Source: Dictyobacter vulcani (GTDB lineage: Bacteria > Chloroflexota > Ktedonobacteria > Ktedonobacterales > Ktedonobacteraceae). Taken from it: a stretch of 64,000 nt of DNA. The notes under the pieces were generated by a model, which did no database searches, had not been told where the DNA came from, and saw only the letters and a program-made list of their open reading frames with translations. The position numbers were made by a program, and so were the translations under genes. Of the stretch, positions 7,716 to 24,823 are shown piece after piece. Location: NCBI RefSeq assembly GCF_008974265.1, contig NZ_BKZW01000001.1, positions 1,426,001 to 1,490,000 on the forward strand, given 5' to 3'. Position 1 is the first letter of the stretch, and every line of letters starts with the position of its first letter.

Positions 7716-9992
7716 ATGAAAGCAGAAGCATTAATTGGAAGGGCATTAGGCACATGCACACTCCAAAAGTTAGTAGGGCAAGGTGGCATGGGCGCAGTGT
7801 ATCTCGCTCAGCAGTCCCGCCCTCGGCGTCAGGTTGCCGTAAAAGTGCTTTTACCTATAACCCAGCTGAATGCCAACCAGTTAGCCGCATTTCTAGAACG
7901 CTTCCGCCGCGAGACTGATGCCGCCGCTTCTCTGGAACATCCAAACATTATGCCTGTCCATGAATATGGAGAGCAGGCTGGTATCGCCTATCTGGTTATG
8001 CCTTACGTTTCAGGGGGCACGTTACGCGATGAACTGGAACGCGAAGGGCCGTTAACCCTGCAAAAGACGATGGATTATTTAGATCAGCTTTCCGCGGCCC
8101 TGGATTTTGCTCACGAACACGGGGTTATTCACCGCGATATCAAGCCCGCCAACATTATGGTCACAAACGAAGGACGCCTCATCCTCTCTGACTTTGGTCT
8201 GGTCAAAATTATTGCCGCCGGGCAGGCCCCTCAGGTACGTCTGACAGGTGCTGGTGCACCAGTTGGTACACCGGATTATATGGCTCCAGAGCAGGTCATT
8301 GGTGAGGAAGTTGATACACGCGCGGACCTCTATTCTCTGGGTGTGATTCTTTTTCAAATGCTTACTGGCACGACTCCATTCCAGGGAGAGACGCCGATGC
8401 AGATTGCCGCCCAGCATTTACAGATACCACCTCCTTCCCCGCAGATGTTACGCCCGGATCTGCCCATTGCCGCCGAACAGGTGGTGCTACGCGCTATGGC
8501 GAAACGCCCCGGAGACCGCTTTATGCGGGCTGAGGATATGGCCAGAGCGTTTCGTAATGCCCTGCTTAACTCAGGCATACAAATCGGCGCAGCTCAAACA
8601 TGGGCCGGCCTGCTCAGTGGCTCAACAGCCTCACGCATGGCGGTTCCTAAAGGACAGTTTGATCCTATGCGCCAGACTGCTTCGATGCCTAAAGTGACAA
8701 AAGCAGATTTATCTCCTCGTGCCACTGGCAATTTACTTAATCGCGCAGCTATGCCACCAATGCCGCCCGCGCAGAATGGGTTTGCAGCAACAAATCAGAA
8801 CAATCCATCGCCACGGGCAACTGGCGGCCTCTTAAGTCGAACAGGGATGATGGCCTCTGTCAAGTCAAATGCTGCTGCACTGGATGCTCAGCCACGTAGC
8901 GGCCTGCTCTCCAGAACCGGCAAATCCCCTATGACCGGAACAGATAATGACCTCGGGAGTGGGCTACATCCATCCTGGAACCGCGAGTCTCCACAGACGC
9001 CTACAGCACTTCCTGGTAATGGTGCGATGATGAAAACTCCCACCAATGCCCTGGCGCTTCAAGAAACAAGAACATCGACGGGCACGCTTAAACTCAATGA
9101 TCCAGTTAAAGTCGTGAAAGTACCAGTTGCGGGCCAGCCAGGCCAATATATCACCGGCATCTTGCCCTTCGAACGCCAACCAGAAGAAGAAGAGAAGCCA
9201 CAAAAACAGCGTAAGGCGATGAAGCCATGGATGCCAACCGCACTGGCAGCAGCCGCCGTCATTGTGGTCCTGGCATCTCTGGGCATATTGCTGTTTTTCC
9301 AGAATCAGAGTAAAACAGTCCTCAATGGTCAGCAATCCCTGGCTGCTACCGCCAATGCAGTTACTCCCGATACGCCGGGCGCGCGCGCTACAGCACAGGC
9401 AATCGCCAATATACTTGTTACGGATCCCCTGGATAAAAATAACAATGGCTGGCGTACGAATCCCGCTAACCTTTATAGCTTTAAAAATGGTGCTTATCAT
9501 ATTGCTGTCCAGGGAGATAAAGGTAGTGGCGCCATTTTACCCGGCAAATCCTATGATGGCCCCATAACCTATCGCTTGACGATGCAAGAAATCAAGGGCA
9601 ATGATAACGATGCAGGCAACACTTTTGGCATGATTTTCCGTTTCAATCAGCAAAATAAAAATGGCAAAACAAATACCACGTTCTATACCTTTGAGGTCGC
9701 GAATACGAAAGGTAAAGAATACAAATTGTGGCGCTACGATGATAGCCAGACTAATCCCTGGACCACAGTGAAAAACGGTACGCTGGCCATGGGGAATGAA
9801 TTTCATCTGGGCAAACAGGCCAATACCATCGAGATTGCCATGAATGCAGATAAATTTACAGTCACCGTCAACGGAAAAAAATTACCAAAAGTCTTTCAGG
9901 ATAATACCTATAAAAATGGTACTGTAGGCATGACGGTCAATATGAATGGTACCGAAGTTGCCTTCAAGAATCTCTTGCTCACGCGGAACTAA
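7716..9992 (+). CDS. Receptor Ser/Thr protein kinase with LamG/DUF1080-like extracytoplasmic sensor domain
   Basis: Transmembrane Hanks-type kinase of 758 residues. The kinase domain (about 1-275) is complete: Gly loop GQGGMG at 21-26, VAVK lysine at 43, HRDIKPAN with the catalytic Asp at 141, DFG at 159 and APEQ. A 225-residue Pro/Ser/Thr linker follows, with three variants of a GLL motif (ATGNLLNR, ATGGLLSR, RSGLLSR). Then comes a block TGTLKLNDPVKVV plus PVAGQPGQ, one transmembrane helix at about 508-528, and a 200-residue beta-rich ectodomain resembling concanavalin/LamG-like sugar-binding folds (for example TVNGKKLP, GTVGMTVN). The ectodomain assignment is by pattern and should be checked. 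A TTG precedes the ATG; I chose the ATG at 7716 because of ribosome binding site spacing. Confidence 0.88.
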   Translation: MKAEALIGRALGTCTLQKLVGQGGMGAVYLAQQSRPRRQVAVKVLLPITQLNANQLAAFLERFRRETDAAASLEHPNIMPVHEYGEQAGIAYLVMPYVSGGTLRDELEREGPLTLQKTMDYLDQLSAALDFAHEHGVIHRDIKPANIMVTNEGRLILSDFGLVKIIAAGQAPQVRLTGAGAPVGTPDYMAPEQVIGEEVDTRADLYSLGVILFQMLTGTTPFQGETPMQIAAQHLQIPPPSPQMLRPDLPIAAEQVVLRAMAKRPGDRFMRAEDMARAFRNALLNSGIQIGAAQTWAGLLSGSTASRMAVPKGQFDPMRQTASMPKVTKADLSPRATGNLLNRAAMPPMPPAQNGFAATNQNNPSPRATGGLLSRTGMMASVKSNAAALDAQPRSGLLSRTGKSPMTGTDNDLGSGLHPSWNRESPQTPTALPGNGAMMKTPTNALALQETRTSTGTLKLNDPVKVVKVPVAGQPGQYITGILPFERQPEEEEKPQKQRKAMKPWMPTALAAAAVIVVLASLGILLFFQNQSKTVLNGQQSLAATANAVTPDTPGARATAQAIANILVTDPLDKNNNGWRTNPANLYSFKNGAYHIAVQGDKGSGAILPGKSYDGPITYRLTMQEIKGNDNDAGNTFGMIFRFNQQNKNGKTNTTFYTFEVANTKGKEYKLWRYDDSQTNPWTTVKNGTLAMGNEFHLGKQANTIEIAMNADKFTVTVNGKKLPKVFQDNTYKNGTVGMTVNMNGTEVAFKNLLLTRN

Positions 9993-13963: not shown

Positions 13964-14434
13964 TTGATAACTATGACTAACATAATCGCGTCTGTAGCAC
14001 TACAACAGGCAGGCCTACTGGCTTTTAAATCAAAGTCAACTGACATCATTCCGATTGTCTTATGGGTCACAGGTTTTCTCTGTCTGCTCAATATTGGACT
14101 GGCGATCTTTTATCGCCGCAATAAGCACCTTGAGATCCTGTCCTACTATGGAGCCTGTGCATTTGAACTGCTGCTCTTCGTAGGTGCCTTACTGGTACTG
14201 CTAGGCGTCATCTCACAATCACTGTTCCGCCTACCGCCCGGACTCCCTATCAACCAGGCCGAGATAGGCGTAGCACTCGCCATCGGCCTGGGACTCTTCC
14301 CTGCTGCCTACTGGCACCGCATCAACTTGTCCGAGTTGCCGAAACGCATTAACGAAGATGGCAAAAACATGAACAACGCTCAAGCCAAAGTGCGCGTTCG
14401 CGACCGCAGCATTCCTGGCGAGTGGATGAACTAA
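13964..14434 (+). CDS. Small membrane protein of unknown function
   Basis: I do not recognise this protein. The 156 residues contain three to four hydrophobic segments: a weak one near the N-terminus, then about residues 22-45 (IIPIVLWVTGFLCLLNIGLA), 55-85 and 95-115, and a hydrophilic charged C-terminal tail. A GGAGGT ribosome binding site lies five bases before a TTG at 13964 and 14 bases before an ATG at 13973; spacing favours the TTG. It follows the kinase and sensor genes on the same strand with a 59-base gap and is closed by a strong terminator, so it may be the last gene of that unit. Confidence 0.7.
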   Translation: MITMTNIIASVALQQAGLLAFKSKSTDIIPIVLWVTGFLCLLNIGLAIFYRRNKHLEILSYYGACAFELLLFVGALLVLLGVISQSLFRLPPGLPINQAEIGVALAIGLGLFPAAYWHRINLSELPKRINEDGKNMNNAQAKVRVRDRSIPGEWMN

Positions 14435-14445
14435 AACAACCAATC

Positions 14446-14488
14446 AAAGGCGGCAGAAGAAAGAATATTTCTCCTGCCGCCTTTTTTT
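14446..14488 (+). terminator. Intrinsic terminator
   Basis: An AAAGGCGGCAG / CTGCCGCCTTT stem (14446-14456 against about 14473-14483) is followed by a run of T residues, 12 bases after the stop codon. Confidence 0.93.
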
Positions 14489-14757
14489 ATATCGCTATAT
14501 ATCCTGCATAGTGTAGCCCATTAAAAAGCTCTCAATAAAAAAAAGGAGCGGGCCAGTGCATTTTCATTGGATAAATCCCATCCTATTCCGTTTATGTCTA
14601 TGAAATACAGGTAAATAGCTTTCTGCTATAATAATCATAGCCTTTAAATAGTCAGCCTGAGCAGACAGCTGAACATAAACATAAAGATATTTTGACCGGG
14701 TCTACCGAAAACAGATGCAGGACAGAGTACCTGCATGCATCATAATGAAAAAGGATA
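14489..14757. other. Intergenic leader of the ABC-2 ATPase gene
   Basis: No gene is visible. A TATAAT hexamer occurs at 14627-14632 but without a good -35 box at the usual distance. An AAAAGGA ribosome binding site stands just before the start at 14758. Confidence 0.4.
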
Positions 14758-15630
14758 ATGAGCATGACGACATTTCCTGAACCGAACTCATCTACTACTT
14801 CTTCGGTGGAGCAGTACTATACTTCTCCGGTTCCTATGCAGGCGAATAACAACACGTCTTATGCTATCGTGACCCGCAATCTGATTCGCCAGTTTGATCA
14901 GAAATGGGCGGTGAATAATCTCAATCTAACGGTGCAAGCGGGCGAATTCTTTGGTTTTCTTGGACCCAATGGAGCAGGTAAATCCACGACGATCAAAATG
15001 ATGGTTGGCTTGTTGCGACCCAGTTCGGGCAATATCTGGGTTGGCGGCATCGATGTCTGGCAAGATCCACTCAAAGCCCGGGCCTTGATGGGAGTACTGC
15101 CAGAATATCTGAATCTCTACGAGCGCCTGTCTGGACGCGAGTTTATTACCTTCTCGGGCCATATGTATGGCGTGCCTGAGGCTGATATTCTGAAGCGTAC
15201 TGAGGAGTTATTGCAGATATTGGATCTGGCTAATGATGCGGATAAATTGATTGTCGACTATTCAGTGGGTATGCGCAAAAAAGTAGCCTTGGCCGCTGCG
15301 ATTATTCATCGTCCCCAGGTACTCTTCCTGGATGAACCATTTGAGGGCATTGATCCAGTCAGTTCACGTGTCATCCGCGACATTCTACAGGACCTGACGC
15401 ACAGGGGTACCACGATCTTCTTCTCTTCGCACATCATGGAAGTAGTGGAGAGGCTCTGTACCCGCGTGGGTATCATCAATCAGGGAGTCCTGGTTGCCGA
15501 GGGTACATTGCAAGAGCTACGCGAGCGCGCCAGTGGCAATGGTGGGGATAAAGATGCCACCTTAGAGGATATCTTCCTCAATGTAATCGGTGTGCGCAAT
15601 GAGAACCACAATTTAAGCTGGTTGGACTAG
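14758..15630 (+). CDS. ABC-2 type transporter, ATP-binding subunit
   Basis: Cytoplasmic ATPase of 290 residues that would power a separate membrane permease. Motifs: Walker A GPNGAGKST, a signature-like YSVGMRKKVALAA, Walker B VLFLDEPFEGIDP, and the switch His in FFSSHIMEV. About 35 Ser/Thr-rich residues precede the nucleotide-binding domain. No permease is adjacent; the likely partner by type is the ABC-2 permease at 23114-24823, with the peptide locus between. The natural substrate is unknown. A bidirectional terminator follows immediately. Confidence 0.9.
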   Translation: MSMTTFPEPNSSTTSSVEQYYTSPVPMQANNNTSYAIVTRNLIRQFDQKWAVNNLNLTVQAGEFFGFLGPNGAGKSTTIKMMVGLLRPSSGNIWVGGIDVWQDPLKARALMGVLPEYLNLYERLSGREFITFSGHMYGVPEADILKRTEELLQILDLANDADKLIVDYSVGMRKKVALAAAIIHRPQVLFLDEPFEGIDPVSSRVIRDILQDLTHRGTTIFFSSHIMEVVERLCTRVGIINQGVLVAEGTLQELRERASGNGGDKDATLEDIFLNVIGVRNENHNLSWLD

Positions 15631-15648
15631 GATTATCCATAAAGCACG

Positions 15649-15691
15649 GAGAGGCTGCATTATGTTCATCATATACGTAATGCAGCCTCTC
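15649..15691. terminator. Bidirectional intrinsic terminator
   Basis: A perfect 14-bp inverted repeat (15649-15662 against 15678-15691) separates the converging ABC-2 ATPase and peptide exporter genes. Confidence 0.88.
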
Positions 15692-15710
15692 TTACTACCA
15701 GAGATCCTCT

Positions 15711-18281
15711 TTATGCGACTCCAATTTCGCCATTCTCCATCTGAATCTCAATCAAACGTGCGTAGAAGCCACCGCGTTGGAGCAAGCGATGATGGGTACC
15801 CTGCTCCACAATACGTCCCTGATCCAGGACAAGAATAAGGTCTACGTTACGGATGGTACTCAGACGGTGTGCGATCACGATTTGCGTACAAGAAAGACTA
15901 TTGAGACTCTGCTCGACCGCTCGCTCGGTCGTCACATCCAGGGCGCTGGTTGCCTCGTCGAGTAACATCAGGACGGGATTATTGGCCAGGGCGCGCGCCA
16001 ATGCCAGGCGCTGACGCTGTCCACCCGAGAAGACACTCCCACCTTCTGACAGCAACGTTTCATAGCCCATCGGCATCTTTTCGATATCCTCATGGATAGC
16101 TGCGGCTTTTGCGGCTCGGATAATCTGCTTCATACTCATATCAGAGTTATTGAAAGCAATATTTTCGCGCACAGAGCCACTGAAAACAAACGACTCCTGC
16201 AGCACAACACCAAACTGCCGCCGTACCTCCTGATAGTTGAGTTGCTTCAATGGGATACCATCATACAGGATATCTCCGCTGGTAGGAGTGATCAGACCGA
16301 TCAGCAATTTGCCCAACGTGCTCTTACCAGAGCCAGTCTTTCCAACCAGTGCCACCTTTTGTCCGGGTCGAATATGGACCGCGATATCATTCAAAACAGG
16401 TGGGGTATTAGGATCATATTGAAAACTTACCTGCCTCAGTTCAAGTGCACCTTTCAACCGTGGTGGTAACTGAACCTGCTGCAGGTCCTGCTCCGGTTCG
16501 CTCCCAAGTACATCCGCCAGACGGTCAAAGTGGGCATGCGCTATTTGTATTTTCTGTCCACTGGAGGCCAGTGAACTGAGAGGAACCAGAAATGAAACGG
16601 CCAGCGTGCTCAGTGCCAGCATAGAACCAACGGACATGGCACCATTGATCACCTGCGTAGCCCCTATCCAGAGCAGTAGTAGTGGCGATAAGAATTGCAG
16701 GATCTCAAAAGCAATCCCGACCATCGCCTGAAGATAGTTACGCTGGTTAGAAATATTCATCTCGTCAAAAAAGAGATTTGTCCAACGGGCCAGCGCTCGC
16801 TGTTCCGCGCCAGCGGCCTTCACCGTGGCAATACCGGCCAGCACCTCGTTCAGATATCCTTGCGTTTTTCCTTGCGCAATCAGATCACGCATGGTCAGCC
16901 TGCGAATAGCTGCGGCCGTAGATAGTAGCAAACCTACCTGCACTGCACCAATAACGATGGTCGCACCAGCAAATAGCTTCGATTGGATAATCAAGACTAT
17001 AAGATAGACAAGTACCGATGAACCATCCAGCAGAGTAGAGATCATCTGACCCGTTAATAGATCACGAATGGCCGCGTTGCTTTCCGCACGTGATAGCAGA
17101 TCGCCATTCAAACGCATCTGAAAGAAACGATAGGATAAACTCAGCAAGTGCTCCAGAAAGTGCAGCATCATTTGCGCATCCATACGTGTTTGCAGATAGA
17201 TAAGTAAAGAAACACGCAGTAGCTTCATGACGCCTTGCATCAGAATCAGGAAGAGCATACTGATACCAAGCATGATTAAAAGATTGCCAGCTTTGGTTGG
17301 GATCACATAATCGATAATCGTCTGTGTTAACAGCGGCGCGCCTAATCCAATAATCTGTAGTAACAGGGAAATGCCAATAATCTGGGCCATAACCCCGCGC
17401 ATATCTGGCAACGAGCGCAGATAGGTCCACAGCGAAAGAGTACGGGATGAAGTATGGCGCTCAAAACTTGCGCCCGGTTCGAGCATAATTAAGACACCTG
17501 TAAAACCCTCCTCAAACTCCGCCTGCGATAATTTTCTGCGCCCTGTTGCTGGATCAACGATATCCACATGCCGGCTAGACCAGCGCTCAATCACCACAAA
17601 ATGATTGAATTCCCAGTGAGCGATGGCTGGCAAGGTGAGAAAACGAAAATCATTCTTTTTCAACGAGACGGTACGCACCCGCAGTCCATACTGGCGTGCA
17701 GCCTTTACAATCGCCAGCGCGGACAGACCATCACGGCCCACCCCACAGAGGTCCTGCACATCCGAAACACTGACTGTACAGCCATGATAATTCAAGATCA
17801 TTGCCAGACAACATGCTCCGCATTCAACGGCACTCATCTGTCTCAGTTCATGCACACGACGCCAGCGTCTTTTGCGGCGAGGGGCTGACACTCCTGCTGA
17901 GGATGGCTGTCTGGCTTCCTGTGCCTGCTTCTGAACCAGTTGGGGCCTTGCGGCTGCTTGCTCTGGTACTATACTGGCAGGCTTGTTTTCAGGCACCCTC
18001 AGCACCTGTGGCTCCGGAGAAGATGCACGTGAAACCTGCTGGCCTTTAACCGCAGGCATCGGCCGGCTCGGCAATGAAAGGAGTTGAGGGCCAGAAGCTA
18101 TATGTTTATCAGTATGCAGATTATCCGTGGGAGGAGCAGAAATCGTGGAGGATACCGGGCGTCGAGAGTCAGTGCGCCGAAAAGAACCGGGTAACATAAG
18201 CCGGGGCGGCCCCTGCAGCTTCTGCGGCTTCTTGCTCACCATGCCTTTTCCGACAAATTGGGTATGCTGTTTCTGTTCCAT
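15711..18281 (-). CDS. Peptidase-containing ABC transporter (C39 peptidase, double-glycine peptide exporter)
   Basis: Bifunctional exporter of 856 residues that cleaves a double-glycine leader and exports the peptide through the membrane. Order: about 135 residues of Pro/Arg-rich, probably disordered extension; C39 peptidase with the catalytic Cys in SAVECGACCL (about residue 148), His in HWEFNHFVV and Asp in IVDPATGRR; a six-helix ABC membrane domain; and an ATPase domain with Walker A GKTGSGKST (about 648), signature SGGQRQRLALARAL and Walker B VLMLLDEATSALD. The long N-terminal extension is unusual, as these proteins normally begin near the C39 domain. The frame continues to 18389, but ATG 18281 has an AAGGA ribosome binding site lying in the end of the upstream gene, so the two are tightly coupled. 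Its cargo is probably the peptide at 18980-19237. Confidence 0.93.
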   Translation of the reverse strand: MEQKQHTQFVGKGMVSKKPQKLQGPPRLMLPGSFRRTDSRRPVSSTISAPPTDNLHTDKHIASGPQLLSLPSRPMPAVKGQQVSRASSPEPQVLRVPENKPASIVPEQAAARPQLVQKQAQEARQPSSAGVSAPRRKRRWRRVHELRQMSAVECGACCLAMILNYHGCTVSVSDVQDLCGVGRDGLSALAIVKAARQYGLRVRTVSLKKNDFRFLTLPAIAHWEFNHFVVIERWSSRHVDIVDPATGRRKLSQAEFEEGFTGVLIMLEPGASFERHTSSRTLSLWTYLRSLPDMRGVMAQIIGISLLLQIIGLGAPLLTQTIIDYVIPTKAGNLLIMLGISMLFLILMQGVMKLLRVSLLIYLQTRMDAQMMLHFLEHLLSLSYRFFQMRLNGDLLSRAESNAAIRDLLTGQMISTLLDGSSVLVYLIVLIIQSKLFAGATIVIGAVQVGLLLSTAAAIRRLTMRDLIAQGKTQGYLNEVLAGIATVKAAGAEQRALARWTNLFFDEMNISNQRNYLQAMVGIAFEILQFLSPLLLLWIGATQVINGAMSVGSMLALSTLAVSFLVPLSSLASSGQKIQIAHAHFDRLADVLGSEPEQDLQQVQLPPRLKGALELRQVSFQYDPNTPPVLNDIAVHIRPGQKVALVGKTGSGKSTLGKLLIGLITPTSGDILYDGIPLKQLNYQEVRRQFGVVLQESFVFSGSVRENIAFNNSDMSMKQIIRAAKAAAIHEDIEKMPMGYETLLSEGGSVFSGGQRQRLALARALANNPVLMLLDEATSALDVTTERAVEQSLNSLSCTQIVIAHRLSTIRNVDLILVLDQGRIVEQGTHHRLLQRGGFYARLIEIQMENGEIGVA

Positions 18282-18288
18282 AATCACT

Positions 18289-18867
18289 CTATCCTTCTGA
18301 TTTTCTGAGAAGTTGATTGAATCCTGGAAGCAAGGAAAGCACACTCTGCGATCCAGTCTGAATCTGTGCACTACATAGGCTACCAGCATAAACGCTTGAG
18401 GAAGCAGCAGACCCGATGGAAATAGTAACAGTAAAAGACGGCTCTACGATTACCTGCGCCAGTCCACCTTGAAGTTTGTAACGGCTACGTGCCTGGTCAG
18501 GACTTATCAGGGTTGCATCCACCTGCTCGACAATGCCAGTTACTCTGGTTGGGGTCGAGCCAATGTTCACGACAACGGCTTGCCCTGGATGAAGTCCTGC
18601 CCGCTGGTGCGGTGAAAAAAAGAGTTCGGCTACGGCTGTTTTCGCGCTTTGTCCGGCTACCTTCTGTTCGACAATTATTCCCTGACCCTGAATAACAACT
18701 GGCACCTGGATAGATAAGGCAAAACCCGCGGCACCAAAAAGGGCTAGCAAAAAAATCCAGAAGAAGATCAATGCCGGCGGATAAGCCACATGTAACAATA
18801 CTCCTTGCTCGTGTTTCTGCTGATATCGTTCTACGGCCTTTTCTCGGAAGATAGATCGTCCTGACAT
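18289..18867 (-). CDS. Minimal HlyD-like membrane fusion protein for peptide export
   Basis: The 192-residue protein starts with a basic cytoplasmic stretch SIFREKAVERYQQ typical of accessory proteins of NHLP/C39 exporters, then one transmembrane helix (about 34-56) and a short beta-barrel-like region with QVPVVIQGQGIIVEQ and a C-terminal VYAGSLCSAQIQTGSQS strand pair. Family members are normally 300-450 residues with a long coiled coil; here that hairpin is missing. It sits directly upstream of the exporter gene with a 7-base gap and should bridge exporter and envelope. ATG 18867 has a TGAGGAAAT ribosome binding site. It could be a natural short form or a deletion derivative; no frameshift is apparent. 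Confidence 0.75.
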   Translation of the reverse strand: MSGRSIFREKAVERYQQKHEQGVLLHVAYPPALIFFWIFLLALFGAAGFALSIQVPVVIQGQGIIVEQKVAGQSAKTAVAELFFSPHQRAGLHPGQAVVVNIGSTPTRVTGIVEQVDATLISPDQARSRYKLQGGLAQVIVEPSFTVTISIGSAASSSVYAGSLCSAQIQTGSQSVLSLLPGFNQLLRKSEG

Positions 18868-18893
18868 CGGTATGATATTTCCTCATAAACAGA

Positions 18894-18933
18894 CAAGGCA
18901 AAAGCCTAACCAATGGTTATAACTTTTGCCTTG
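18894..18933 (-). terminator. Attenuator-like hairpin between peptide gene and export genes
   Basis: An 11-bp perfect inverted repeat (18894-18904 against 18923-18933) lies between the peptide stop and the export genes. On the minus strand it is followed by only a short T-rich stretch, suggesting partial termination. Confidence 0.6.
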
Positions 18934-18979
18934 CCACACACAGGCATTCTGGGGTCCAGAGCAGACTGCCTGGCGTCAA

Positions 18980-19237
18980 TTAGGGGAGTAAGGTACCTGG
19001 AACAATCGCAGGCGTTGTGACGCTAGCGCCCGCGGCCTGAACCTTTATTCCACTTACACTCAAGCTGCTAACAGCACCTGTTGCCGTGTTAGTAACATTG
19101 CCAACGGTCGAAAATACGTCGACCATGTCAACAGTATTGAGCAGGCTACCACCTGAGACCTGGCTCAACTGCTCATCGGTGACTTCTTCCATAACCTGGT
19201 CCGTGATCTCTGTGTTTTTCTTTCCAAATTTAAACAT
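18980..19237 (-). CDS. Double-glycine leader peptide precursor (bacteriocin-like or signal peptide)
   Basis: The 85-residue precursor has a 30-residue leader ending DEQLSQVSGG, with hydrophobic residues at -12, -7 and -4 and Gly-Gly at -2/-1 as C39 exporters require. The predicted mature peptide is 55 residues, starting SLLNTVDMVD. It is rich in Ser, Thr, Val and Ala, has no Cys, one Phe as its only aromatic residue, one Lys and two Asp, so it is roughly neutral and not cationic as bacteriocins often are. No lanthionine, cyclodehydratase or radical-SAM gene is nearby, so it is probably unmodified. ATG 19237 has a strong AAAAGGAG ribosome binding site. It is first in the minus-strand unit before the fusion protein and exporter. 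No separate immunity protein is recognised. Confidence 0.85.
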   Translation of the reverse strand: MFKFGKKNTEITDQVMEEVTDEQLSQVSGGSLLNTVDMVDVFSTVGNVTNTATGAVSSLSVSGIKVQAAGASVTTPAIVPGTLLP

Positions 19238-19773
19238 GCTATACTACTCCTTTTCGTAAAACGTTTGCCTCCGCCATGCAACCATTTACGGTCAACTGGC
19301 AGTAGTAAAAATTGGCAAACAATAAACACTTCGACTCGGGCTCACACGATAAATGCTGCAAGCTATCTATACATTCCAGCCATAACAGACTCCGAAGATA
19401 GATATTCACGCATTCAGCGGTAAGCATTTCAAGACATTAAACACTTTTCTTGAAATTGTTGAGACCATAACACAAAACACCTTGTTTCCATCCCTACAGC
19501 ATAACTGCATTGCAAGAGCATTTTCTGCGGTCTCATTTTGTTATCGAAAAAGTCTGAAAAATGTTGCGCGATTTGAACGATTCCGTAAAAATTCGTTACC
19601 CGATAGATTTTCATTACCCGGGTGAGTAGGATAAAATATGCCAATCACAGCTCGTCTGTTTGGCAACCGGGTATAAATAGCCATTTTGGTTAGTATTTCG
19701 ATGAACATCGCAACATTACCATATATTGCCCCGATAACCATGCGAGATTTCAAAAATACCCTTGAGGAGCACC
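19238..19773. other. Divergent intergenic region between peptide operon and sigma-factor operon
   Basis: About 535 bases of AT-rich DNA. Short open frames on the minus strand have no good ribosome binding site and no recognisable content. It must carry promoters for both units; I could not identify an ECF-type promoter pair with confidence. Confidence 0.5.
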
Positions 19774-20325
19774 ATGCATCAACGACAACGGCAAGTCCTT
19801 AGCGGTTTACATGTTGAAAAGCTCTACAATAAACATGCACCTGATATTCTGAGATACATTCATAGATATATATTTTCAAATGAAAATGCTGATGATGTAT
19901 TAGTTGAAGTTTTTCTAGCTGCTATTGAGAGTCCAAACTTGCTCAAATTAACGATGGAAGAACAATTTGCCTGGCTACAACGCGTAGCACGCAACAAAAT
20001 AGTCGACCACCAACGCAGGGTCACCAGATATCCAGAGGTAACTCTGGACGAAATGTTGGATAGTCCATTTGATGCCGACCTGGTTACACCAGAAAAAGAA
20101 ATAGTGGAGCGAGAAGAAGTGGAATTATTGCGTTCCCATTTGTCTGTCCTACCAGAACTGCAACAACAGGTACTACAACTGCGTTTCGGTGAGGGTCTAC
20201 GTACCAAAGAGATTGCTTCAAAACTGCACAAAAGTGATGGTGCCATCCGATCCCTGCTATTACGTTCGCTCAATCTTTTACGGGATCTCTATAGCACACA
20301 TGACAAGGAGCGGATCAATGGATAG
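19774..20325 (+). CDS. ECF-type RNA polymerase sigma factor
   Basis: The 183-residue protein has sigma region 2 (YNKHAPDILRYIHRYI followed by NADDVLVEVFLAA), a short linker and region 4 (LQQQVLQLRFGEGLRTKEIA, then a helix-turn-helix with KSDGAIRSLLLRS). It lacks the long extra regions of housekeeping sigma factors. It would direct RNA polymerase to a small regulon. The ATG at 19774 has a GAGGAG ribosome binding site; an upstream TTG in frame overlaps that site. Its stop overlaps the start of the next gene by eight bases, showing translational coupling with a membrane protein that is the likely anti-sigma partner. The regulon may include the divergent peptide operon; that is inference from position. 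Confidence 0.9.
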   Translation: MHQRQRQVLSGLHVEKLYNKHAPDILRYIHRYIFSNENADDVLVEVFLAAIESPNLLKLTMEEQFAWLQRVARNKIVDHQRRVTRYPEVTLDEMLDSPFDADLVTPEKEIVEREEVELLRSHLSVLPELQQQVLQLRFGEGLRTKEIASKLHKSDGAIRSLLLRSLNLLRDLYSTHDKERING

Positions 20326-20764
20326 GGATGACGAAAAACTTACGCTAGAGAACGTAGATGAGCAAATAGAACAGTATCTTTCACAGCCTCGGACATCCAC
20401 TTCTGAGACTAAAACTCCGCTCGCTCGTACTACCCATAATCTGCACGATATTTATGCTGAGCAGCGTAGGTTAGAGCAAGCCTGGGCGCGTATTAATAAC
20501 CATATATCTGCATTGAATGCTGACAATGACGCCACAATCGCGGATTTGTCTACTATCCAACCTTCTCAGGCAAAAGAAAAGAAGGCCAGACCAGTTGTTG
20601 GAGAAGAGTCATCTCATCCTATCCTGCAGCTCAATAAAAAACGCTCCCAAAAGGCCGTGTATTGGAAGCGGCGCATGGTCGGATTTGGCGTCACGGCGGC
20701 AGTAATACTGCTGGCCATCTTCCTCTGGCCAACCATTTCATACCTGATGTCTATGGCACGCTGA
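20318..20764 (+). CDS. Putative membrane-bound anti-sigma protein, N-terminal part (frameshifted?)
   Basis: The 148-residue product begins with ATG 20318 inside the sigma gene stop. It is a charged cytoplasmic region (about 1-118, with a helical stretch RRLEQAWARINNHISALN) followed by one transmembrane helix (about 121-143, MVGFGVTAAVILLAIFLW) and ends five residues later. No known anti-sigma family is recognisable, but the coupling to the sigma factor suggests that role. The next frame, shifted by one, carries on directly with an extracytoplasmic-type PsbP-like domain pair that otherwise has no signal sequence. So the gene may really be one protein of about 500 residues broken by an indel near 20735-20765. 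Confidence 0.7.
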   Translation: MDRDDEKLTLENVDEQIEQYLSQPRTSTSETKTPLARTTHNLHDIYAEQRRLEQAWARINNHISALNADNDATIADLSTIQPSQAKEKKARPVVGEESSHPILQLNKKRSQKAVYWKRRMVGFGVTAAVILLAIFLWPTISYLMSMAR

Positions 20765-20790
20765 TCGGGCACCCAAAGCCTTCCAGCGTT

Positions 20791-21825
20791 GTGGTTACAC
20801 CTCAGAGCCAATCGACGGTAGATGTAGCCAATATGAAGGTCTATAGCAGTCAGTACTTCACCATCCAGTATCCAGCCAATTGGATCATTACACGCTTAAC
20901 AACTGGTGGATCTTCACAGCAAAGAGTGCAGTTCCGACCTTCCGCGACAAGTACTATTTTTGCTGATATTACAGTTTTACATAATAGTGGCTCTACTGCT
21001 ACTCAATTGCTGCATATGGATCCTGATGTCAAACTGGGGAGCGGACTCAGCACGAGTTCAGTTGTCTATCATGGTGTGCCCTGGATGACTGGCATCGTCA
21101 ACCTTCCGGCTTCTGATCACACTCCGGGCAGTAAACGTGAGGTTGCCTATACTAATCAGAAAACTCCTTACAGACTTGAGTTTGGCACAACAACAGACAA
21201 ATTTGACGCCTATAGGCCGGTTTTCAATAACATGTTTGCTTCGTTCCAGGCGCAGGATATGCCTTTAGCCACAGCTACCGCTACGGCGCCAGCTACAAAC
21301 AAACCAGGACCTCAAGTGACGCCAACGGCAACATCACTGGCGCAGGGAACGCCACCATCCGCGGCGACACCGACACCACCAACAACGCTGGCTGGCATAA
21401 AAGTGTATAGCGGTCAGTACTTCACCATTCAGTATCCAGCCAGTTGGTTAATTACCAACATAACTACTGGTGGTACCTATCAACAAACGGTGCAATTCCG
21501 TCCATCAGTGACGAGTGCAGCTTTTGTCAATATCAATGTACTAAATACTAGCGGATTATCGGCGGATCAACTGCTGAATATGGATCCTGATCTGAAATTG
21601 GGAAGTGGACTCAGCACGAGTTCTGCCACCTATAACGGCATGCTCTGGAAAATTGGCACGGTCAATCAGCTGGCGACATTGCTAAATCCAGCCAGCAAAA
21701 CAGAGATTGCATACACTAATCAGAAAAATCCTTATAAAATCGAGTTTAGTGCACCGCCAGATACATTTGATGCAAATACGCAAGCTTTCAATACCATGCT
21801 GGCTTCATTCAAACCAGCAGGTTAG
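20791..21825 (+). CDS. Tandem PsbP-like domain protein, probably the ectodomain of the upstream membrane protein
   Basis: Two repeats of about 140 residues resemble PsbP-like/DUF1795-type domains: the first begins MKVYSSQYFTIQYPANW (about 20830) and the second IKVYSGQYFTIQYPASW (about 21405), each closing with an F-x-x-M-x-A-S-F motif. A Thr/Pro/Ala linker separates them. No signal peptide or membrane segment belongs to this frame on its own, and a convincing ribosome binding site is missing; the start is set at a GTG for convenience and may be wrong. The frame is open back to 20662, through the transmembrane helix of the previous gene in the other frame, so a fused single gene is more likely. 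Function unknown; an extracytoplasmic ligand sensor is inferred. Confidence 0.65.
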   Translation: MVTPQSQSTVDVANMKVYSSQYFTIQYPANWIITRLTTGGSSQQRVQFRPSATSTIFADITVLHNSGSTATQLLHMDPDVKLGSGLSTSSVVYHGVPWMTGIVNLPASDHTPGSKREVAYTNQKTPYRLEFGTTTDKFDAYRPVFNNMFASFQAQDMPLATATATAPATNKPGPQVTPTATSLAQGTPPSAATPTPPTTLAGIKVYSGQYFTIQYPASWLITNITTGGTYQQTVQFRPSVTSAAFVNINVLNTSGLSADQLLNMDPDLKLGSGLSTSSATYNGMLWKIGTVNQLATLLNPASKTEIAYTNQKNPYKIEFSAPPDTFDANTQAFNTMLASFKPAG

Positions 21826-21871
21826 CCAAAACACGCCAATAAATCATGAACTATCCATTGGGGGATAACAA

Positions 21872-21915
21872 TGTATGCAGAGTACCTCTTTAAGATAAAA
21901 GGTACTCTGCATACA
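21872..21915 (+). terminator. Strong hairpin after the PsbP-like gene
   Basis: A perfect 16-bp inverted repeat (21872-21887 against 21900-21915) lies about 45 bases after the stop. The T-tract is poor, but the stem is strong. Confidence 0.7.
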
Positions 21916-21958
21916 CATCCGCCCGACTATACGTCCAGATGAGAGGCAGGTTTCTAAG

Positions 21959-22846
21959 ATGAAAAATATACGATGTCTTGCTATAATAGATAACATAAAG
22001 CAATCTCGACTCAAGCAGCGTCCTCACAAGATATCAGTGCCCCTTATCTCTCTACGCGCACTACTAGCCAGCCTTTTGCTGGTCATTATGCTGGGATCGC
22101 ACTCCGGGCTGCTAATGAAAACTGCCTATGCCAGCAGTACATGTGGCGTGCTCTTCGTGTGTCCAACACCGACTCCACAACCATTACCCACACCCACTCC
22201 ACAACCATTACCTACGCCCACTCCAGCACAATCAATGCCAACGCCAACGCCACCGACCAGTGCAACACCACCAATACATCCCAATCCAACAAGTGCTGCA
22301 GTACCAGGATTAGCACCGACAACTACGACCAAAGCATCGCCTACGGTCAAGGCAAAGGCTACCCCTACCCGCGTAAGCCAGACGCCAGTTCCTGCTTCGA
22401 CACCTGCCCCGACTACGCACGATGCACAGGCTGGAAACCAGCCAGCAGATCAAGCAGGAGACAGTGGTTTTTCTCGGATGTTGCTGATCATCGCGATTGT
22501 CTTCGTATGCCTGCTCATGGGTCTTGCAATCGGTCTCTGGTTCTTCCGCCGTAAGCTTTTGCCACCCATCAATGTCAAAAAGCCAGTCAGTGGCATTTCC
22601 TCCTGGACTCGTACCCTGAAGCCAGATGGCACCCTTAACGCGAATAACATAAATACTTTATCTGCCACTGAGACCGAGAACCATAGTGCTGCCACCATCG
22701 CCAGTAGTGCTGTACACTCCCCACAACTCGTTCTGTCGAATAAGACCGATATGGCCTCTAATAGCACTAGAACAGCGCCGAATCTGGCAGCGACCAACGC
22801 CAATAACTCATGGTATGATGTGTCAGACGAGCCATTCTCGGTTTAG
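21959..22846 (+). CDS. Proline/threonine-rich single-pass membrane protein
   Basis: The 295-residue protein has a long N-terminal signal region (hydrophobic LRALLASLLLVIMLG, about residues 32-46, ending at TAYASS), then a 100-residue extracytoplasmic segment of TPTPQPLP-type repeats and further Pro/Thr/Ala sequence. One transmembrane helix follows (about 172-194), then a positively charged FFRRK stop-transfer and a 100-residue cytoplasmic tail rich in Ser/Asn/Thr. I do not recognise a family. The layout suggests a wall-spanning stalk or surface anchor. ATG 21959 has a GAGAGG ribosome binding site at slightly long spacing. It is separated from the PsbP-like gene by a hairpin. Confidence 0.75.
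   Translation: MKNIRCLAIIDNIKQSRLKQRPHKISVPLISLRALLASLLLVIMLGSHSGLLMKTAYASSTCGVLFVCPTPTPQPLPTPTPQPLPTPTPAQSMPTPTPPTSATPPIHPNPTSAAVPGLAPTTTTKASPTVKAKATPTRVSQTPVPASTPAPTTHDAQAGNQPADQAGDSGFSRMLLIIAIVFVCLLMGLAIGLWFFRRKLLPPINVKKPVSGISSWTRTLKPDGTLNANNINTLSATETENHSAATIASSAVHSPQLVLSNKTDMASNSTRTAPNLAATNANNSWYDVSDEPFSV
22166..22225 (+). repeat. 24-base tandem coding repeat (TPTPQPLP)
   Basis: Two near-identical 24-base units (22166-22189 and 22190-22213) and half of a third encode a Pro-Thr-Pro stalk. Confidence 0.8.
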
Positions 22847-22980
22847 CCAGGGGTACGAGACGCATTAATTTTATCCACCTGTTTGACTGTTTGGTTATAG
22901 TAGTGTATATACGTTTTAATATATGCCTTTTCTATAGCGAATGCTTTACATAACTCGTTCAAAGCAGTCGAGCAGAAAAA

Positions 22981-23028
22981 ACTCCTCTATCTGTAAGTTT
23001 GTTCTGCTGAACAGTTGGATAGAGGAGT
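22981..23028. terminator. Intrinsic terminator between stalk protein and ABC-2 permease
   Basis: An 11-bp stem (22981-22991 against 23018-23028) encloses a second small GTTCTGC hairpin. Confidence 0.75.
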
Positions 23029-23113
23029 CTATTCTTACGTATGTATCATATGTATCATATGTGGCATAAATTTTTTCTACCTGGCTAGTGACTGTAATAG
23101 TTCAGGGGGGACT

Positions 23114-24823
23114 GTGATATCTCTACGTAATTCATTTCATGCGGATAAAATTCGCTGGTTATTCTGGCTACGCTGGAAAATGTTTACGCGTGGCTTTACC
23201 CGCGGCAATCGCGCCTCACGCATTATCGGTACCATTTTTCTTGGCATCTTTGTCCTCACGATTGGTATAACGGTTGCCGGCGGAACCTTTGCTGCCTACC
23301 GTTTTCTGCCTGCTCCAGCCAATGCTGAAGTCCTATTCCTGGTTTTAACTGGCATCTTTGCTCTCTGGCTGATATTGCCTCTACTGGAATTTACAACCAA
23401 TGAGGGATTGGATATCTCCAAGCTGGCACTCTTTCCACTAACGCGCGGCGAACTGATGACCAGTCTGGTCATCTCTACGCTACTGGATATTCCGACAGTA
23501 GGATTAGTTATTGCCCTGGGGGCTGTCGTCGTGGGTTGGGCGACCTCAATTCCACTGGCCCTGATGGCCTTTGTCACCATGCTTGTATTCTATGTGCAAC
23601 TGGTAGCAGCAAGTCAGCTCATTCTGGCCTTACTGCAAAAAGTATTGCAGAGCCGGCGTTTTCGCGATATCAGCGTGATCCTGGTGGTGCTCCTATCATC
23701 CAGCGGCTACCTCTGCCAGTTCGCGGTGCGCGGATTTATCAATGTGGGCTTCTATAATACAATGCTCCATGCCGGACTCTCACCCTATCTACAATGGCTA
23801 CCGCCAGGCATGGCGGCACGCGCGATCCAGCAGGCCTCGGTTGGCAACTGGCTCATGAGCGGAGTCTGGTTACTGGCTCTGATTGTGATCAGCTTCTGCT
23901 TCTTATACTTCTGGCAGATGATTGTCGAGCGTGGCCTGACCGCCGCCGAAAGCGCTGGTTCAGCCAAGACGGTTCGTCGTCAGCGCGTTACCACGACTAC
24001 AGGCGCAAGCGCAGCGACTGGTAATCTGATCACACGCTACTTGCCAGTACAGGTCAGGGCAATGCTGAACAAAGACCTCAAATACTTCTGGCGTGATCCA
24101 CAAATCAAGGCTATCTTTCTACAATCCATGGTCTCAATGGTCTTCCTGGTCCTCTACTTAGGCTTTACCGTGTTTAGCAATAGTGGTCAGAGTAGTGGCA
24201 GGATTCTTACGATTCTGGGACCCTGGGCAGTACCGGTCGTGCCATTGTTCATTCTATTCACCCTTTACGCGCTGGCCTATAACTCGCTGGGCTTTGAGCG
24301 TCAGGGCATTACAACCCTGTTTCTCTTCCCTATTGATCCCCGTTATATCCTGTGGGGCAAAAATATTGCCGTTTTCCTGATTGGATTGGTTGAGGTCACG
24401 ATTCTAATTCTGCTGGCGGCAATCATCACCCATGGTTGGCTCTATATCGGACCAGCCTTCGTCGTTGGCCTGGCTGGTATTGGCATTATTCTGGGTATCG
24501 GCAACATTACCAGTGTCTTTCTACCACAAAAAATGCGTCAGGGACGGCGTGGCTTCCAGACGACAAGTAATATGTCAGCGGAAGGCGGCTGTCTACGTGG
24601 TCTGCTCTCAATGGTAGCCTGGTTAACCATGGTCGTCCTGCTGATCCCCGTGGGGGCTGCGGTGGCCTTACCCATCTTCTTCCATATGCAATGGATCTGG
24701 CTACTCAGCTTGCCTGCCTCACTGCTGTATGGCCTGGCTTTCTATATGATTGTCACCAATATTGTCGCGCCACACATCTTGAAAAAAGCACCTGAAATAG
24801 TTGGAACTATTGCCAAAGAATAG
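23114..24823 (+). CDS. ABC-2 type transporter permease (putative exporter)
   Basis: Integral membrane protein of 569 residues with about 12 hydrophobic helices in two halves joined by a hydrophilic loop around residue 300 (SAGSAKTVRRQR). The pattern RWLFWLRWKMFTRG at the start and the FPLTRGELM loop is that of ABC-2 exporter permeases in Chloroflexota and Actinobacteria. The frame extends upstream to 23015, but the GTG at 23114 has a CAGGGGGG ribosome binding site and the upstream part lies in a terminator, so GTG is the start. A partner ATPase is not adjacent; the one at 14758 is a candidate. Substrate unknown. Confidence 0.85.
   Translation: MISLRNSFHADKIRWLFWLRWKMFTRGFTRGNRASRIIGTIFLGIFVLTIGITVAGGTFAAYRFLPAPANAEVLFLVLTGIFALWLILPLLEFTTNEGLDISKLALFPLTRGELMTSLVISTLLDIPTVGLVIALGAVVVGWATSIPLALMAFVTMLVFYVQLVAASQLILALLQKVLQSRRFRDISVILVVLLSSSGYLCQFAVRGFINVGFYNTMLHAGLSPYLQWLPPGMAARAIQQASVGNWLMSGVWLLALIVISFCFLYFWQMIVERGLTAAESAGSAKTVRRQRVTTTTGASAATGNLITRYLPVQVRAMLNKDLKYFWRDPQIKAIFLQSMVSMVFLVLYLGFTVFSNSGQSSGRILTILGPWAVPVVPLFILFTLYALAYNSLGFERQGITTLFLFPIDPRYILWGKNIAVFLIGLVEVTILILLAAIITHGWLYIGPAFVVGLAGIGIILGIGNITSVFLPQKMRQGRRGFQTTSNMSAEGGCLRGLLSMVAWLTMVVLLIPVGAAVALPIFFHMQWIWLLSLPASLLYGLAFYMIVTNIVAPHILKKAPEIVGTIAKE

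Follow-up and report, generated by a model that had tools for sequence, protein, structure and literature searches.

Most of what is known of peptide signalling in bacteria concerns two-component systems, cytoplasmic receptors and a handful of lantibiotic clusters. PspX/PspW of planosporicin form a system akin to the MibX/MibW pair. In the accessible text of its report, MibX/MibW, an extracytoplasmic function (ECF) sigma factor with a membrane anti-sigma factor, controls the lantibiotic microbisporicin and feed-forward by the exported peptide is proposed; the mibA promoter lacks an ECF motif and a loop downstream of mibA is a putative attenuator (PMC4973701). The available portions of the work on Synechococcus elongatus describe EbfG1-4/PteB, in which small, non-antibiotic proteins with a double-glycine (GG) leader are exported by a C39 protein and have a role in biofilm formation (PMC4997328, PMC9981879), and a third partial source presents RsiV as both an anti-sigma factor and a lysozyme receptor (PMC5014341). 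Here we analysed a 64,000-nt stretch of Dictyobacter vulcani DNA (contig C1, 1426001-1490000; hereafter the window) from a host genome of 7.4 Mb, labelled G000, where two gene sets diverge, one for a GG precursor, a C39 exporter and a short fusion protein, the other for an ECF sigma factor, a membrane partner and a stalk protein. Our explanation, which we put forward tentatively and at somewhat less than even confidence, is a peptide-export module whose divergent gene sets are likely co-activated by their own ECF sigma factor, the latter being held by a predicted anti-sigma factor and released when its PsbP-like ectodomain detects the peptide after export, or an effect of it. Gene order, a motif pair, a conserved leader and hairpin, and a one-piece anti-sigma architecture in relatives are the observations behind it.

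Like MibX/MibW, the locus has an ECF sigma factor and a predicted membrane anti-sigma factor beside a ribosomal peptide, an ECF-type motif before the sigma gene and a loop after the precursor gene. Unlike MibX/MibW, it has no modification enzymes, a C39 exporter, a PsbP-like ectodomain and a long structured leader; the sigma motif stands before the precursor gene too, no MibR-like activator was seen in the module, and the motif differs from GAACC-N15-GCTAC of MibX/MibW. The Dictyobacter module would work like MibX/MibW, through feed-forward control of a ribosomal peptide by an ECF factor, yet is not a member of that kind, because modification enzymes are missing and the precursor carries the sigma motif. 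With EbfG/PteB it shares the type of substrate, a small GG-leader protein with a C39 exporter, whereas the accessible parts of those papers describe no ECF pair, and a biofilm role is shown for EbfG. RsiV is likewise a membrane anti-sigma factor, with an ectodomain that is a receptor for an extracellular protein, but ectodomain and ligand differ. No such system was described in the literature titles and abstract openings searched, most subscription papers lying outside that search; queries joining extracytoplasmic function, PsbP and anti-sigma, or Dictyobacter and sigma factor, returned nothing, and the word sigma is absent from the main text, as far as it is available, of the Ktedonobacteria genome paper (PMC6497799).

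Conservation of the divergent arrangement

A first-pass annotation of the window had proposed this divergent gene set, and every gene of it was found, as listed here with open reading frame (ORF) positions, lengths in amino acids (aa) and transmembrane (TM) segments.

15711..18281, minus strand: C39 peptidase-containing ATP-binding cassette (ABC) exporter, 856 aa (Peptidase_C39, ABC_membrane and ABC_tran above cut-off; motifs)
18289..18867, minus strand: short one-TM membrane-fusion-like protein, 192 aa (ORF; matches across the order)
18980..19237, minus strand: double-glycine precursor, 85 aa, with a 30-aa leader and a 55-aa predicted core (leader model, homologues)
19774..20325, plus strand: ECF sigma factor, 183 aa (Sigma70_r2 and r4 above cut-off)
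20318..20764, plus strand: predicted anti-sigma cytoplasmic part and TM helix, overlapping the sigma gene (ORF, one-frame relatives)
20765..21825, plus strand: two PsbP-like repeats, in a different frame in the window (profile score just under cut-off, fold match; joined to the preceding part in G023, G024 and G026)
21959..22846, plus strand: stalk protein with a signal-peptide-like start, CGxxFxC, Pro/Thr-rich stalk, TM and conserved tail

The minus-strand genes are transcribed in the order precursor (19237-18980), fusion protein (18867-18289) and C39 exporter (18281-15711); on the plus strand the sigma gene (19774-20325) is followed by the anti-sigma-like protein from 20318 and the stalk protein (21959-22846). 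The genus comparison comprised five genomes, the window's own and the relatives G023, G024, G025 and G026, and the entire divergent order is kept in all five; a random neighbourhood in relatives, which the annotation had named as a refutation, was thus not found. Twenty loci were fetched and read, and the complete arrangement is carried by all four that come from genus relatives. The 16 others (three in the window's genome, some on short contigs) are fusion-protein/C39 loci beyond the relatives' modules; at none of them did a sigma or anti-sigma gene match, and an ECF search relaxed to E 0.1 was empty as well. A loose motif scan found a candidate GG precursor upstream of the fusion protein in 10 of these 16. 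Since the exporter pair occurs at 16 loci without the sigma genes, it is a common tool to which, in this sample, the sigma circuit is a genus-specific addition. The GG candidates at two of these loci (L057 and L061) have Gly/His-rich or His-rich cores and are possibly metal-binding.

A motif shared by both promoters

Alignment of the five divergent regions revealed an identical element upstream of both gene sets.

19542..19567, minus strand: ECF-type promoter motif on the precursor side, GCAACATT-N13-CGATA (alignment, genome scan)
19710..19736, plus strand: ECF-type promoter motif on the sigma side, GCAACATT-N14-CGATA (alignment, genome scan)

The annotation had called for a common ECF promoter motif in 19238-19773 and had named its absence as a refutation; the predicted element GCAACATT-N13/14-CGATA stands before the sigma and precursor genes in five of five genomes. 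Scanning about 41 Mb of the five genomes for GCAACATT-N12-15-CGATA gave 21 matches (4, 5, 5, 5 and 2) against 5 for the backward control; ten are the two sites at each of the five loci and 11 lie elsewhere. The window holds the motif twice, compared with 0.02 occurrences expected from shuffles. In G026 both motifs are kept while an insertion of about 1.5 kb separates the two promoters. We regard it as highly probable, judging from these patterns, that the sigma factor controls both promoters. By motif position the transcripts would start with leaders of about 30 nt for sigma and about 300 nt for the precursor.

All 11 outside matches were compared with the module genes, and the surrounding ORFs were read for two. 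One match, at C1:1182448 of G000, has no ORF of at least 100 aa starting directly behind it. Another belongs to a second copy of a sigma-promoter-region fragment in G024, about 67 kb away (L089, around 8900-9050), and precedes a 1194-aa ORF whose first part is similar to a serine/threonine kinase.

Relocation of the module as a block

Two genes flank the module in the window.

14758..15630, plus strand: ABC ATPase, separated by the module from its permease gene
23105..24823, plus strand: ABC permease, adjoining the ATPase gene in G024, G025 and G026

These genes are direct neighbours in three of the four relatives (G024, G025, G026). The G023 junction is split by two recombinase-type ORFs, one with a Resolvase domain (L097, 3824-7215), so the site was hit twice in the genus. 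In all four relatives the module sits elsewhere, beside genes for nitric oxide (NO) synthase and a haem-NO-binding protein. As it splits an ABC pair that is adjacent in three of four relatives and lies elsewhere in all four, the module must have moved as a block, both halves together. Searching the window's genome gave no NO synthase match, an empty result that is weak on its own. In the relatives the NO synthase (PF02898, 545.9 bits) and haem-NO-binding (PF07700, 83.8 bits) genes are found behind the stalk gene and in its orientation (L045, 13231-15293; L043, L044, L046).

Could the two halves simply be unrelated neighbours? Other genera do have loci with exporter and fusion protein but no sigma genes. 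The idea of unrelated neighbours is already contradicted by the order in five of five genomes, the joint movement of the halves and one rare motif at both promoters, and we find it barely credible. A chance neighbourhood was ruled out by the same order in five genomes, the common motif and the relocation of the block.

The sigma factor and its predicted anti-sigma partner

Ten proteins of 13964-24823 were scanned with Pfam and NCBIfam at curated cut-offs. The sigma factor consists of regions 2 and 4 only, as expected of the ECF type (PF04542, 39.1 bits, cut-off 24; PF04545, 43.0, cut-off 24.1; TIGR02937, 80.4, cut-off 42.9); its best NCBIfam equivalog, TIGR02952, scored 87.5 bits, under the 206.45 needed. 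Pairwise identity across the five genomes is 79-92%.

The annotation had given the sigma factor a membrane partner with a PsbP-like domain. Both parts are indeed encoded, but in the window they do not form one protein, a stop at 20764 placing the PsbP-like repeats in another frame. The two parts share one frame in G023, G024 and G026, where the product shows the architecture of a transmembrane anti-sigma factor: a gene directly after or overlapping the sigma gene, a presumably cytoplasmic N-terminus, one TM helix and an extracytoplasmic domain. The helix spans residues 127-154 of a G024 structure model. The PsbP-like part scored 24.6 bits with PsbP_2 of Pfam, just under the cut-off of 27, and a PsbP/Mog1 fold match covers most of the domain. 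Out of 7995 database candidates scored, 31 were homologues of the G024 protein, metagenome sequences included. Single-frame proteins of 460-531 aa with the full architecture account for 23, five have a single PsbP-like repeat, and three are the window's piece, a G025 fragment and a 291-aa protein. Full-length relatives in genome contigs came from four loci, all of genus relatives (the window's own records possibly being left out), and matches across the order beyond the genus had partial coverage only. Comparison of the anti-sigma profile with solved structures gave only two chance matches (E 0.44 and 0.68).

Further clues come from paralogues. Of the nine best sigma matches in the window's genome, counting its own, seven have directly behind them a gene for a one-TM protein whose N-terminal motif is related. 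Such sigma/one-TM pairs (L133-L138 in the same genome, and L120) carry different ectodomains and, by their sequences, make up a sigma/anti-sigma family with exchanged sensors, which supports an anti-sigma role for the partner. On these comparisons we consider it highly probable that the partner is the anti-sigma factor of this sigma factor.

The frame break in the window is either an assembly error or a mutation. If it is a mutation, the circuit might be decaying in the window's strain, with a truncated anti-sigma factor that lacks its ectodomain and senses nothing any more. In accordance with this, the break falls between TM helix and ectodomain in the window and not in G023, G024 and G026, the module was relocated, and this genome has lost any match to NO synthase. 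Against this, the other genes are open, the two promoters and the two RNA elements are conserved, the picture would be no different with an assembly error, and frame changes occur in G025 too; we rate decay as rather unlikely. The G025 changes affect the exporter (L044, 6762-6774) and the first PsbP-like repeat of the anti-sigma protein (around 11350) and are assembly errors or decay.

The precursor peptide and its predicted export

C39, TM and ATPase domains with their catalytic residues are all present in the exporter (C39 Cys/His/Asp and ATPase motifs intact; Peptidase_C39, 131 bits against a Pfam cut-off of 22), which is 76-83% identical in the three relatives where it is one frame. Its best NCBIfam model is TIGR03796, the equivalog for NHLM/NHLP-type bacteriocin exporters, yet the score of 661.8 bits is below the cut-off of 853.3. 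Defence-system models gave just two generic-looking matches, at its ATPase end. The fusion protein had no Pfam match and a weak HlyD-type NCBIfam match far under cut-off. Protein searches of 47 genomes of the order, the window's counted, matched the fusion protein in 24 and the precursor in seven, namely the five genus genomes and, weakly, two of another genus. The exporter very probably carries the module's own peptide.

The predicted core in the window has 55 aa, a charge of -1, no Cys, 45% Ser/Thr/Val and a predicted mass of 5330.0 Da. This agrees with the neutral, Cys-free, Ser/Thr/Val-rich mature peptide of the annotation, as all five orthologues are Cys-free with a charge of 0 to -2. The same holds for its statement that modification enzyme and immunity gene are missing: no lanthionine-modification domain was found among the ten scanned proteins, and no immunity gene was recognised within the module by Pfam or NCBIfam. 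Pairwise identity across the five species is 31-62% for the cores and 73-87% for the leaders. The leader matched NCBIfam bacteriocin_sig (TIGR01847) at 16.1 bits against a cut-off of 15.7 when the protein was tested singly; in a genome-wide scan at E<=0.1 the model gave no match in the window's genome. The Pfam model of class IIc bacteriocins, Bacteriocin_IIc (PF10439), reached 18.7 bits, under its cut-off of 27.1. Amphipathicity of the core is mixed and did not serve as support, with a helical moment of the N-terminal half at p<0.05 in 9 of 19 homologues (p=0.12 in the window) and a C-terminal beta moment at p<0.05 in 4 of 19, the window's peptide not among them. A structure model of the precursor was discarded (mean pLDDT 49).

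These properties bear on what the peptide does. It could be a bacteriocin under ECF control that inhibits relatives, the stalk or another membrane protein giving self-protection, as would fit the leader score above cut-off, database names such as bacteriocin for P0044 and the helical moments in 9 of 19 homologues. The class IIc score under cut-off, the window's own helical moment, the core charge of 0 to -2 and the lack of a recognised immunity gene speak against it, and we consider this improbable. Alternatively the peptide may be an output and not a signal, belonging to the surface or the matrix and comparable to EbfG of Synechococcus, with the ectodomain sensing an envelope or environmental cue. 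The neutral, Cys-free core in five of five species favours this, as do the paralogous anti-sigma proteins with other ectodomains (a C39 gene is absent at the two such loci whose ORFs were read) and, in the published portions available, the precedent of EbfG, GG proteins that leave the cell through a C39 protein and are not antibiotics (PMC4997328, PMC9981879). A beta or amyloid signature was not found, however, the beta moments being confined to 4 of 19 homologues without the window's and the precursor model being unusable. We hold a pure output role to be unlikely, if deserving of more weight than a bacteriocin.

Predicted leader RNA and intergenic hairpin

Two predicted RNA elements accompany the precursor gene.

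19238..19535, minus strand: putative structured leader of the precursor mRNA (folding against shuffles, RNAalifold, covariance model)
18892..18935, minus strand: hairpin between the precursor and fusion-protein genes, with a 12-bp consensus stem (five species compared)

In all five species the precursor start codon lies 299-306 nt behind the -10 element. The window's leader folds better than shuffles (z -3.35), and a second run gave z values of -2.9 for G000, -2.4 for G023, -2.2 for G025, -3.4 for G024 and -1.4 for G026. The RNAalifold structure, itself derived from the same sequences, has 90.2% of its cells paired, a share that drops to 34-43% when it is slid. Both sides changed in 9 of 76 pairs, a count that 1 of 500 shuffles equalled (shuffles of this kind can be exceeded by related sequences), and 51 G-U cells against 16 A-C cells favour the sense strand, on which the structure was predicted. 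A covariance model of the leader's middle part found one match in each of the five genus genomes and, with stricter filters, none in the other 42. A coding leader was rejected: ORFs of 30 to 79 codons differ among the five species and alignment indels are not in threes, so we read the leader as RNA. It had no Rfam match at gathering score and is, by these comparisons, a candidate new cis-regulatory RNA. In the hairpin stem 4 of 12 pairs changed on both sides among the five species, equalled by 3 of 500 shuffles; a miRNA match over it in the Rfam search (E 1.2) was dismissed as chance. Hairpins of such placement are known to keep precursor mRNA above exporter mRNA.

A proposed circuit

In the mechanism that we consider most likely, the sigma factor would be held at the membrane by the predicted anti-sigma factor until a signal on the PsbP-like ectodomain frees it. 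Freed sigma would bind both motifs and transcribe both gene sets, thereby making more of itself. The C39 domain would cut after GG and the 55-residue peptide would be exported unmodified, with the hairpin presumably holding peptide output above exporter output and the leader RNA acting as a second layer of control. The annotation's suggestion of a peptide sensed by the PsbP-like domain, with sigma feedback, is thus supported in part. We speculate that the ectodomain binds the peptide itself and that, at the wall, the stalk protein presents the peptide, receives it or confers tolerance to it. We consider it less likely than not that the exported peptide is itself the signal sensed, and give this slightly more weight than another cue with the peptide as output. 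The fullest version is on the unlikely side as well: a self-contained Chloroflexota circuit in which a C39-exported, unmodified, Cys-free GG peptide is recognised by a tandem PsbP-like ectodomain, freeing an ECF sigma factor for the peptide, the exporter, itself and the receptor, with the 300-nt leader RNA and a dosage hairpin setting the output.

Several findings weigh against our explanation. All 16 other fusion-protein/C39 loci read were without an ECF match, so the exporter pair works without the sigma circuit. A PsbP/Mog1 fold tells nothing of function, the partner matched no Pfam or NCBIfam anti-sigma domain model, and in the window its frame is broken between TM helix and ectodomain. 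Since paralogous pairs carry other ectodomains, such domains need not sense peptides. In one of the five species, G026, the leader is not clearly better than shuffles (11 of 100 as good).

If this fullest version were correct, it would parallel, with an ECF factor, the two-component pheromone loops of Firmicutes, and would be one among several sigma circuits in these bacteria that arose by ectodomain swapping. Cell-cell signalling in mycelial Chloroflexota would have a new wiring in a compact, movable module that couples a double-glycine peptide with an ECF sigma/anti-sigma pair. With a single promoter motif, a single peptide and a single receptor candidate it is readily testable, and the sigma/anti-sigma relatives with swapped ectodomains could help to find the signals of other orphan circuits.

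The stalk protein and module edges

The Pro-rich stalk protein was found as the annotation had it, rich in Pro and Thr, with a conserved CGxxFxC after the signal-peptide-like start. Its homologue search lacked sensitivity: it returned one match, P0050, and left the genus orthologues, which are known from the loci, undetected. A long near-perfect inverted repeat lies at 21872-21915 of the window, in the gap that separates the PsbP-like frame from the stalk gene; folds at this place in the relatives differ or are weaker. At the module's edge, directly behind the exporter gene, a 14-bp perfect inverted repeat at 15649-15691 is likely a terminator.

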